Assembly: GCA_902555185.1 (NCBI GenBank)
Contig: CACDSA010000007.1
Location: 1-46,538 of the forward strand
From: an uncultured Pelagibacteraceae bacterium
GTDB lineage: Bacteria > Pseudomonadota > Alphaproteobacteria > Pelagibacterales > Pelagibacteraceae
Direction of reading: 5' to 3'
DNA length: 46,538 nt
In this document: piece after piece, positions 35,734 through 38,417 of the stretch
Position numbering within the stretch: position 1 is the first letter of the stretch
Layout: each line of letters opens with the position of its first letter
The notes under the pieces: model-generated
Seen by the model: the letters and a program-made list of their open reading frames with translations, nothing else
What the model was told of the DNA's origin: nothing
Databases searched by the model: none
Translations under genes and position numbers: made by a program

Positions 35734-37410
35734 ATGGAAATTAAAAATTTAAATAGTTTAATTGATTTATATTTTAATAAATACGCGATAATAAATAAAA
35801 AAAAACCTTTCCTTAAATGGCTGAAATCAAGTGAAAGACCCCATACTTGGGAAGATGTGACTTTAAACATTTTTAAATTAACTTCCAAAATAAAATCATT
35901 AATAAATGATGGAGATAAATGTTTAATTTTATCAGAGAATAGACCTTATTGGTTTATATCTGATATGGCTATAATGAATGCAGGCGGAATTTCAGTTCCT
36001 ATCTTTACAACCTATTCTGCTAATGATTATAAATATATTTTAGAAGATTGTAAGCCTACATTAATATTTGTTTCAAATCAAAATCAATTTAACAAGATTA
36101 AAAAATTTATTAATAATGATATTAAAAAAATTATATCATTTGAAAAGTTAGACACCGACAGTTTATTACTTGGAGAAATACTAGAAAAGGAAATTAGTGA
36201 GAAAATAATTAATAAAGATTTAAAAAGAAATATGCCTGCTTGCATAATTTATACATCAGGGACATCTGGAAATCCCAAAGGTGTTGTTTTAAGTCATGGA
36301 GGTATTTTATCTAACTGTGAAGGTGCTGTAGAATTACTAGAGACATTAACTGAAAAAAGAGATCCAGTTTTTTTGACTTGGTTACCTTTATCACATTCTT
36401 ACGAACACACAGTTCAATTTATACAAATTATTGTTGGAGCAAAAGTTTTTTATGCTGAAAGTTTAGAAAAACTAATTTCTAATATGGTTACTGCCAAGCC
36501 TTCAATTATGACAGCTGTTCCAAGATTTTATCAAAATCTTTTTACTAAAATAAATATGAATTTTGAAAAGCAAAAAGGATTAAAAAGAAAATTAATAAAT
36601 CAAACTTTAAATTTAGGTAAAAAAATACTTAAAAAAGAAGAACTAAATTTTAGTGAAAAAATCATAAATTTTTTGTGCGAAAAATTAGTAAGAAAAAAAA
36701 TTAGAGATCAGTTTGGTGGCAATCTTCAGGCTTTTGTTTCCGGAGGAGGAGCTCTTGATCAAAATATAGGGGAATTTTTAAATGCCGTAGGTCTGCCTAC
36801 ACTTCAGGGATACGGTCTTACCGAGGCATCTCCAGTTGTAAGCTGTAATGTACCAGATTTAGTTAAGGTCGATTCAGTAGGACCTCCGTTTAGGACCAAT
36901 AAAGTCAAAATAGCTGAAGATGGAGAAATTCTCATCAAAGGCGAAAACGTTATGTTAGGATATTTGAATTTAAAGGATGAGACTGAAAAAGTAATCAAAG
37001 ATGGATGGCTCCACACTGGAGATATAGGAGAATTGGATGATAGTGGTTATTTAAAAATTACTGATAGAAAAAAAGATATTATAGTAAATTTAGGTGGAGA
37101 TAACATCTCACCAAGTAAAATAGAAAATATTCTATGTCTAAATGAAAATATTAAACAATCTTTTGTCTACGGTGATAAAAAAAATTATTTAGTTGCTTTA
37201 ATTGTTAGTGAAAAAGAAAATAACAAAGAAAAAATAAAACTTATAATTGAAAATATAAATAAAAATTTAACTTTAATCGAAAAAATAAAAAAATTTGTCT
37301 TAATTCACGAAGAATTTACAATTGAAAACGGAATGTTAACACCAACTTTAAAGTTAAAAAGAAAAGAAATTATAAAAAATTATAAACAACAATTAGAAAA
37401 TCTTTATTAA
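35734..37410 (+). CDS. Long-chain acyl-CoA synthetase (AMP-forming)
   Basis: Adenylate-forming enzyme that activates fatty acids, 558 aa. P-loop YTSGTSGNPKG at residues 173-183, LTWLPLSHSYEHT, the GYGLTEASPVV adenine motif, and the hinge/A8 region DGWLHTGDIGELDDSGYLKITDRKKDIIV. The start follows the SGNH gene by 27 bases. The C-terminus is Lys-rich. Chain-length preference cannot be told from sequence alone. Confidence 0.94.
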   Translation: MEIKNLNSLIDLYFNKYAIINKKKPFLKWLKSSERPHTWEDVTLNIFKLTSKIKSLINDGDKCLILSENRPYWFISDMAIMNAGGISVPIFTTYSANDYKYILEDCKPTLIFVSNQNQFNKIKKFINNDIKKIISFEKLDTDSLLLGEILEKEISEKIINKDLKRNMPACIIYTSGTSGNPKGVVLSHGGILSNCEGAVELLETLTEKRDPVFLTWLPLSHSYEHTVQFIQIIVGAKVFYAESLEKLISNMVTAKPSIMTAVPRFYQNLFTKINMNFEKQKGLKRKLINQTLNLGKKILKKEELNFSEKIINFLCEKLVRKKIRDQFGGNLQAFVSGGGALDQNIGEFLNAVGLPTLQGYGLTEASPVVSCNVPDLVKVDSVGPPFRTNKVKIAEDGEILIKGENVMLGYLNLKDETEKVIKDGWLHTGDIGELDDSGYLKITDRKKDIIVNLGGDNISPSKIENILCLNENIKQSFVYGDKKNYLVALIVSEKENNKEKIKLIIENINKNLTLIEKIKKFVLIHEEFTIENGMLTPTLKLKRKEIIKNYKQQLENLY

Positions 37411-37519
37411 AAATATAATTAAAACTTATTTTATTTGCTTAAAAAAACATTGATATTACTAACTTTTTTAAATTTTCGTAAAAAATAAAAAAAAATTAAA
37501 AAATTTTAATTTTTAAAAC

Positions 37520-37533
37520 TAATTTGCAAATTA
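37520..37533. promoter_or_regulatory. Perfect 14-bp palindrome in the mini-gene control region
   Basis: TAATTTGCAAATTA is self-complementary and lies eight bases upstream of the TTGACA of the mini-gene promoter, a typical place for an operator. Another AT-only inverted repeat (AAAAATTAAAA 37491-37501 with TTTTAATTTTT 37504-37514) sits just before it, and GTTTAAT-T-ATTAAAC spans 37568-37582. The whole 37411-37618 gap otherwise holds nothing I can name. Confidence 0.4.
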
Positions 37534-37541
37534 ATTTGTAT

Positions 37542-37569
37542 TTGACATGAATTTTTAATTAATTAATGT
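37542..37569 (+). promoter_or_regulatory. Candidate promoter of the polybasic mini-gene
   Basis: A perfect TTGACA at 37542-37547 is followed at 16 bases by TAATGT (37564-37569), a weak -10; other -10 choices in this AT-rich stretch are possible. The predicted leader is roughly 45 bases and ends with the ribosome binding site AGGGAG (37609-37614). Confidence 0.45.
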
Positions 37570-37618
37570 TTAATTATTAAACGAATCATTAAGATTTGTT
37601 TTAAACAAGGGAGAAAAG

Positions 37619-37690
37619 ATGGCTAAAAGAAGAAAAAAAGCTAAAAAGAAAACTAAAAAGAAAGCAAAAAAGAGAAGAAGAAGAAGATAG
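37619..37690 (+). CDS. 23-aa polybasic mini-protein, unrecognised
   Basis: ATG at 37619 to TAG at 37688. The peptide begins MAKRRKKAKKKTKK and ends in five Arg: 11 Lys, 7 Arg, 3 Ala, 1 Thr, 1 Met, so 18 of 23 residues are basic and none acidic. A strong Shine-Dalgarno (AGGGAG, four bases before the ATG), an upstream TTGACA and a strong terminator 15 bases after the stop make this look like a well expressed independent gene. It could be a small ribosomal protein (compare bTHX, or the basic bS22/mS38 type), a protamine-like nucleoid peptide or an RNA-binding factor; none is proven. Confidence 0.75.
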   Translation: MAKRRKKAKKKTKKKAKKRRRRR

Positions 37691-37705
37691 TTTTCTCTTT
37701 AACTA

Positions 37706-37741
37706 AACGCCCTTTTTATTTTTTAAAGAGGGCGTTTTTTT
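37706..37741 (+). terminator. Intrinsic terminator after the polybasic mini-gene
   Basis: AACGCCCTTTTT (37706-37717) pairs with AAAGAGGGCGTT (37725-37736), a 12-bp stem with one G-U pair and a 7-base loop, followed by a T-run to 37741. It reaches into the stop codon of the convergent carD gene and may slow transcription from both sides. Confidence 0.88.
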
Positions 37742-38417
37742 ATTCCATTTGTGCAGAAATGTTATTTCTACCTAAAGCTTTATCCATTTTTTTTTGAACT
37801 TCTTCGGGACTTACTTTTAAAACTGCTTCAAATTCTGATTTTAGTCTTTCGTAAGCTTTTTCAAATAATTGTCTCTCAGAATAAGATTGATCTGCGATGA
37901 TATCTGTATTTTTATTTAAATCTTTAACTACTTCAGCTAATTCATAAATTTTACCAGAATTAATTTTTTGATCGTATTCCTGTGCTCGTCTACTCCACAT
38001 AGTTCTCTTTATCTTAGGTTTCGTTTTTAAAATTGATATACATTTATTTATCTGGTTTATAGATGCTATTGGTCTTAGTTTTGATTGTTGATTAATTGGA
38101 ACAGTCAAAGTTAATTTTTCTTTTTCAACTAAAATTTTATAAAATTGTATATCTATTTCCCCAATTTTAGCTTTTTCTATTGAAGTTATTTTTCCAACAC
38201 CATGTTTTGGATAAACTACAAAATCTTTTAGATTATAAATTTTTTTCTCAGTCGGTTGCTTTTTAATTTTCTTAATTTCTGGTTTTTCCTCAGTTCCAGA
38301 TATTGTATTTTTCTTCTCTAATATTTTTTCGTTATTTTTAACTTTTGATTTTGATATTATTTTTTTTACATTTTTAGTTTTTTTGAGTTTTTTATTTTTC
38401 TTCTTTTTTTTTGGCAT
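37740..38417 (-). CDS. carD: CarD-family transcription regulator with Lys-rich N-terminal extension
   Basis: RNA-polymerase-binding factor of the CarD/CdnL/TRCF family, which stabilises open complexes at promoters. 225 aa. The RNAP-interaction domain begins around residue 62 (YNLKDFVVYPKHGVGKITSIE) and is followed by the helical DNA-contacting domain with WSRRAQEYDQKINSG and SYSERQLFEKAYERL. The first about 60 residues are a low-complexity Lys-rich extension (MPKKKKKNKKLKKTKNVKK) not part of the CarD fold. Forms a block with fdxA and the helicase, as in many Alphaproteobacteria. Confidence 0.93.
   Translation of the reverse strand: MPKKKKKNKKLKKTKNVKKIISKSKVKNNEKILEKKNTISGTEEKPEIKKIKKQPTEKKIYNLKDFVVYPKHGVGKITSIEKAKIGEIDIQFYKILVEKEKLTLTVPINQQSKLRPIASINQINKCISILKTKPKIKRTMWSRRAQEYDQKINSGKIYELAEVVKDLNKNTDIIADQSYSERQLFEKAYERLKSEFEAVLKVSPEEVQKKMDKALGRNNISAQME

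Follow-up and report, generated by a model that had tools for sequence, protein, structure and literature searches.

The locus

The window analysed here is the whole stretch of 46,538 nucleotides of contig CACDSA010000007.1, from an uncultured Pelagibacteraceae bacterium. It holds a mini-gene at 37619..37690 (+), which encodes the 23-residue peptide MAKRRKKAKKKTKKKAKKRRRRR and ends with TAG. Its upstream neighbour is an AMP-binding (acyl-CoA synthetase-like) gene (35734..37410, +), and its convergent neighbour is carD (37740..38417, -), whose product has a basic N-terminal tail. Past carD there are genes for the ferredoxin FdxA, a TerB-like protein and a Suv3-type helicase.

The ORF is just as an initial annotation of this DNA had described it, with 23 codons, 11 Lys and 7 Arg (18 basic residues) and neither Asp nor Glu. 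It is the only member of its class in the window (ATG ORFs of at least 20 aa, at least 70% K/R, no D/E), and 40 first-order Markov windows contained none. The description of a monocistronic micro-gene in the interval from the synthetase-like gene to carD is also right. No same-strand gene lies 3' of the mini-gene before the terminator and the convergent carD. As had been remarked too, the gene is small enough that annotation tends to drop it. In terms of second copies, the secondary DNA matches fetched from five genomes contain two dissimilar 35-aa ORFs with 43-53% K/R but no comparable ORF made up of K/R alone, and three weak extra matches in the window's own genome also lack one. Digested with trypsin in silico, the window peptide gives no fragment above 3 residues, so that trypsin-based proteomics is expected to miss the peptide.

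Promoter, ribosome site and terminator

The TTGACA reported as a -35 element is exact (37542..37547, +), and each of its bases is the same in more than 90% of 70 loci. The best available candidate for the -10 element, TAATGT at 37564..37569 (+), is a weak match with a 16-nt spacer, and a sigma-70 scan did not list the proposed promoter. The AGGGAG ribosome site is present at 37608..37613 (+), although it lies 5 nt before the ATG and not four as first counted. The terminator is present as well, with slightly different dimensions: its stem has 14 pairs (37705..37737, +) and starts 14 bases past the stop, against the 12 bp and 15 bases given before. It sits between the two convergent stops, and shuffles gave a mean of 0.0. 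The predicted transcript (37577-37741) folds at z = -3.6, with the terminator stem included.

The initial annotation derived the regulation of the gene from two upstream palindromes, and this part does not hold, since they are neither conserved above background nor beyond chance. The 14-bp palindrome at 37520..37533 is exact, but its conservation is 68%, against 68% for the stretch after the upstream gene, and the window has 6 palindromes of 14 bp against a Markov mean of 8.8. The 24-bp AT-only inverted repeat at 37491..37514 is also real, with 11-bp arms around 2 bases, but it is conserved at 62%, which is not above background. Both were rejected as operators, the palindrome being within chance.

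Coding evidence within the genus

By DNA search, 75 of 101 genomes in the window's genus, its own genome counted, were found to have the locus (main-locus matches; the tally is 91 with other matches). We read 70 of these 75 loci, leaving out G047, G057, G064, G086 and G090. All 70 have the ATG, the GGGAG and an in-frame stop, which is TAG in 66 and TAA in 4, and the ORF spans 20-25 codons.

Codon-level conservation, which had been suggested as a check, was scored on 39 distinct coding sequences of the genus with the window as reference. Gapped codons and codons with two or more differences were skipped, leaving 21 distinct single-base codon changes. All 21 are either synonymous (14) or exchanges between Lys and Arg (7). 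When the same changes were placed at random, the mean was 12.6 conservative outcomes and 21 was never reached in 2000 trials; the alignment was protein-guided and is thereby biased towards conservative pairs. The mini-ORF is a real protein-coding gene. The contrary outcome considered at the outset, an RNA conserved in relatives that have lost the ORF, did not occur, as ORF, ATG, ribosome site and stop are all conserved.

Distribution and synteny

Synteny across SAR11 was another proposed check, and it bore out the gene. Of 185 evaluable Pelagibacterales loci, 184 have the mini-gene convergent with carD. The loci should not be counted as independent genomes, the 187 gene-bearing ones representing 162 distinct stretches. 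Outside the order, it is found in 0 of 66 evaluable carD loci. These are 66 of 68 such loci, from alphaproteobacterial genomes and from records titled Acidobacteria (L231) and Proteobacteria (L251). Seven of the 192 Pelagibacterales loci could not be evaluated, either for short sequence past carD or because the carD end was not located, and among them L048, L052 and L073 still have the mini-gene. The one exception, L111 (G106:C5), has the leader and the start with a frameshift in a poly-A run, which is either a sequencing error or real.

A scan of named genomes, covering the best 80 of a longer list, gave the mini-gene in 40 of 40 evaluable Pelagibacterales records and in 0 of 38 others, L211 and L225 being not evaluable. 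The SAR11 single cell PRT-SC02 (L217) is among the records.

As for the other side of the gene, the synthetase is present in every locus of family f1 with more than 600 nt upstream (57/57, 47/47, 10/10 and 37/37). None of 17 loci of the sister family f2 has it in the approximately 1.1-1.3 kb analysed upstream. The longest upstream ORF in L134 of that family is a sigma-32-like gene on the other strand, and in L125 it is a different ORF.

Most loci were reached through carD or its neighbourhood, so that the near-invariant linkage to carD is partly by design, and it could be plain synteny. Of ten assemblies without carD that were checked, five also lack the neighbouring helicase. In the remaining five, either the match to the helicase or the locus itself ends before carD is reached; a contig end was seen in three cases and is presumed in G147 and G153.

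Some further features of the region were observed. CarD of Pelagibacterales has a Lys-rich, H1-like N-terminal tail, with group medians of 66, 101 and 108 aa and about 40% K/R. Outside the order, the median tail is 15 aa, with a range of 8-288 (66 loci, counted from the first Met). L148 has a 30-nt tandem repeat at 2144-2244, where the carD tail is expected. Many assemblies break just 5' of the mini-gene (about 37400-37545), as if the region assembles poorly; contig ends lie there in L017, L020, L026, L041, L042, L045, L048, L049, L052, L054, L055 and L073. Several high-completeness genomes are without carD and part or all of the neighbourhood. The contig of L114 (G129:C6) has the carD/mini-gene pair twice, in opposite orientation and with identical peptides; this is probably an assembly palindrome.

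Length, composition and ancestry

The shortest of the 82 distinct peptides has 19 aa and the longest 91. Sister-family genes in this position specify products of 40-91 aa that are rich in Lys, Ala and Pro and in KAAP, for example MEELKVIFAKARKKAKKKAAPKK... Within f1, the lengths are 34-58 aa in g12, 36-38 in g9, 29-32 in g7 and 31 in g5. The g4 peptides together with those of named Pelagibacter-like records, assigned to g4 by likeness, have 22-35 aa, and g1-g3, g6, g8 and g13 have 19-25 aa.

Composition differs between the ends of this range. Sister-family peptides have a charge of 0.57 per residue and those of the window's genus 0.79, with Ala+Pro fractions of 0.31 and 0.14. Lys/Ala/Pro-rich repeats are present in the sister-family forms and the longer g12 forms and are missing from the window form, which has zero Pro and few Ala and is therefore without the defining features of H1 tails. 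Length changes by whole codons and, in the sister family, by repeat units. Forms of 40 aa and 80 aa occur within one genus of that family, and L148 holds 3.1 copies of a 60-nt unit, at 97%. The gene shares with H1-like proteins a length that varies between copies by in-frame repeat units.

Profile searches gave no family at E<=1, neither in Pfam for seven length forms nor in NCBIfam for six, and a PDB sequence search with the window form had no match. A class-wide protein search with an 85-aa form returned 0 of 143, which says little because the query was of low complexity and run with no positive control. From its place, its leader motif and the graded intermediates, we infer that the mini-gene is a reduced descendant of a domain-less, H1-tail-like gene of Lys/Ala/Pro repeats, even though the sequences are not alignable. 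The sister family, taken as outgroup, suggests that the direction was from long to short.

The leader hairpin

A hairpin missed by the initial annotation lies in the leader at 37579..37601 (+), with the form AAACGAATC-ATTAA-GATTTGTTT. The conserved control element is this hairpin and not the palindromes. It is probably near the 5' end of the mRNA: because of the promoter spacing, it should begin within a few bases of the putative transcript start.

CGAATC precedes the gene in 189 of 192 loci, the other three being cut by contig ends. All 102 distinct leaders with CGAATC fold as a hairpin on that arm. The outer arm (ACGAATC/GATTYGT) is paired in 80 leaders, the inner arm (of TCACTTAA/TTAAGTGA type) in 11, two of which also have some outer pairs, while 11 leaders of the sister family pair GAATCA with TGATTC. 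The first 30 nt of the leaders have a mean of -6.8 kcal/mol, versus -1.1 after mononucleotide shuffling and -0.4 in the preceding 30 nt.

For covariation, we chose 39 leaders from 91 (34 of 80 outer-stem and 5 of 11 sister-family leaders). In their alignment 92% of cells are paired, versus at most 49% when slid. Shuffles were as high in 9 of 500 for the covariation score and in 11 of 500 for cells changed on both sides. The remaining measures were weaker, with shuffles as high in 37/500 for cells paired, 155/500 for pairs changed on both sides and 118/500 for further pair types. Column covariation is thus modest, with three of five measures not standing out clearly against shuffles, and the main support for the RNA structure comes from its universality, its energy and the shifting register.

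The CGAATCA repeat could instead be a DNA operator for a repressor, which we consider rather unlikely. The inverted repeat does lie just 3' of the promoter in most copies, 67 of the 78 distinct leaders of the form CGAATC-gap-GATTYG have a gap of 5 bases, and two-sided base-pair changes are few (4 cells). The gap is, however, also 4, 6, 7 or 8 bases, and a G.U pair is used by 42 of the 80 distinct outer-stem leaders; the variable gap and the common G.U pairs argue for RNA rather than a DNA operator. Furthermore, 9 of the 11 inner-stem leaders lack the right half-site and still pair, in a shifted register.

TTGACA followed by CGAATCA matches in 4 of 6 genomes, and in these 4 only at the mini-gene locus. 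The hairpin pattern is found at the mini-gene locus in 11 of 13 genomes, and the other two, of the sister family, do not fit the pattern. A hairpin regulon was considered and rejected: G101, G134 and G036 have one extra match each, with a gap of 3-4, no A after CGAATC and no nearby K/R ORF. A gap of 4 is found in 6 distinct true leaders, so the match in G036 is not excluded by spacing alone. The leader motif also occurs in 84 stretches of virus contigs; the 80 loci checked have no K/R mini-ORF behind the motif, and so these matches are taken as chance. Rfam at gathering score lists only tRNAs in the window, L134 and L109, and nothing in L106 and L118. In 37480-37760 it has ten sub-threshold matches (E<=1), none of which begins before 37651 or lies on the leader.

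In terms of other leader motifs, CCTC is present in 11/11 distinct sister-family leaders and CTCC follows the hairpin in 8/11 inner-stem leaders; both are potential pairing partners for GGAG in the ribosome site. These additional CCTC/CTCC motifs also concern the leaders of L113-L119 and L128. In the sister family (L125-L148), a CCC/GGG hairpin (CGC/GCG in L125) lies directly before the ribosome site. A possible reading is that these motifs and this hairpin form a translational switch that was lost in the window's genus.

Proposed function

Our preferred reading, with a probability of roughly 50%, is that this is an order-wide micro-gene derived from an H1 tail, whose product would be a well-expressed, protamine- or H1-tail-like polycation for neutralising and compacting nucleic acid, translated from an mRNA of ~160 nt with a hairpin at each end. 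TTGACA and GGGAG would provide good expression of this mRNA. The 5' hairpin, within a few bases of the start site, would protect it from decay at the 5' end. The peptide, predicted to be disordered and with a charge of about +18 in 23 residues, would bind DNA, and probably RNA, without sequence specificity. In a very small cell it may serve as a counter-ion, neutralising nucleic acid and compacting it, and selection would retain its charge and not a fold.

The initial annotation offered two guesses, a very small basic ribosomal protein or a protamine-like nucleoid peptide. The second is the better one, because the longer relatives are H1-tail-like repeat proteins. A bolder version is put forward only tentatively. 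SAR11 might condense its genome (or pack its rRNA) with a bacterial protamine eroded from an H1-like tail: order-wide, often of about 20-30 residues, with no folded part, invisible to trypsin-based proteomics, and with an mRNA of its own (~160 nt) that is capped by a 5' hairpin specific to the locus.

The first guess would make the product a ribosomal or ribosome-associated micro-protein similar to bTHX, bS22 or mS38, with a leader hairpin that is autoregulatory as in ribosomal protein operons. A strong ribosome site, a structured leader and a small basic peptide are consistent with this, as are the CTCC (8 of 11 inner-stem leaders) and CCTC (11 distinct sister-family leaders) able to pair with GGAG. 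We find it unlikely nonetheless. A length of 19-91 aa with tandem repeat units is unlike the occupants of a fixed ribosomal site, and a ribosomal role is less probable because the length is not fixed. The forms tried have no counterpart in Pfam or NCBIfam and the window form has none among PDB sequences, which leaves the analogy unsupported.

Quite unlikely, in our view, is a partner of CarD and RNA polymerase, that is, a detached counterpart of the basic tail of CarD acting at promoter DNA. It would explain the near-invariant linkage to carD, itself partly produced by the sampling, and it fits the long basic CarD tails in Pelagibacterales, compared with a median of 15 aa outside. Still, the two genes are convergent and not co-transcribed. 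Linkage across SAR11 can be general synteny, and the synthetase gene is equally linked within f1.

A polycation that binds polyphosphate or RNA and organises condensates or granules, as reported for AlgP, seems improbable. The KPAA tail of AlgP is reported to be needed for polyphosphate granule spacing (PMC9239181), and the long forms of the mini-gene product share the composition of that tail. No phosphate or polyphosphate gene is among the identified neighbours, however.

Finally, a small regulatory RNA with an incidental ORF, or an upstream leader peptide, was rejected as most improbable despite the short transcript with hairpins at both ends, given the codon-level selection, the start and stop conserved in 70/70 loci, and the absence of any downstream same-strand gene before the terminator and the convergent carD.

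Earlier literature and significance

The GC-IGR survey of SAR11 strain HIMB5, a 2019 study, describes at least three sORFs in intergenic regions (PMC6429828). The mini-gene could be one of them, so prior notice is possible; the main text of that paper never uses the term carD. The intergenic table of PMC2704228 does not name carD. It covers regions of about 26% GC or more and the intergenic region of the mini-gene has 18.5% GC, below this floor, so its absence from the table says little. Searches for Pelagibacter histone-like lysine-rich proteins or protamine, and for small nucleoid-associated proteins of SAR11, found nothing in the paper library used. Judging by titles and the starts of abstracts, none of the listed papers on Pelagibacter and histones evidently concerns the mini-gene, and passages of PMC5069720 and PMC8632094 do not mention it.

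The gene is present in nearly all evaluable sampled loci of the order (184/185), yet the forms tried have no Pfam or NCBIfam family. The graded series from 91 to 19 residues at one locus may indicate how far an H1-like tail can shrink and still be kept. DNA compaction in a very small, streamlined cell also becomes directly testable. Few groups of organisms on Earth are as numerous as SAR11.

Comparison with known systems

Protamines are short, disordered and almost only basic proteins of eukaryotic sperm, dominated by Arg. The mini-peptide is also short, predicted to be disordered and nearly all basic, and no relationship is claimed. The ribosomal proteins bTHX, bS22 and mS38 are very small and basic, with a fixed ribosomal site and near-constant length. 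Unlike them, the mini-gene product has no constant length and no sequence or profile match to them.

As for bacterial polycations, the KPAA tails of AlgP and PhaF in Pseudomonas resemble the long forms in being disordered basic tails of KAAP type. AlgP has an N-terminal domain of 124 aa and a disordered C-terminal domain of 195 aa, and its tail is reported to bind DNA as well (PMC9239181); the mini-gene product has no comparable N-terminal domain.

The chlamydial proteins Hc1 and Hc2 are reported to bind DNA and described as DNA-compacting, Hc2 also as RNA-binding, and the length of Chlamydia Hc2 varies by 36-aa repeat units (PMC2848022). The mini-gene differs from Hc2 (165-237 aa) in its shorter length, in having no profile match and in a window form that is mostly K/R. 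Like Hc2 (hctB) and BpH1 of Bordetella, it has a Lys-rich composition with Ala and Pro (in the long forms), a tail without acidic residues and a length that changes by in-frame repeat units (PMC2848022). By such likenesses, and not by profile-based membership, we would class the gene with the H1-like basic proteins.
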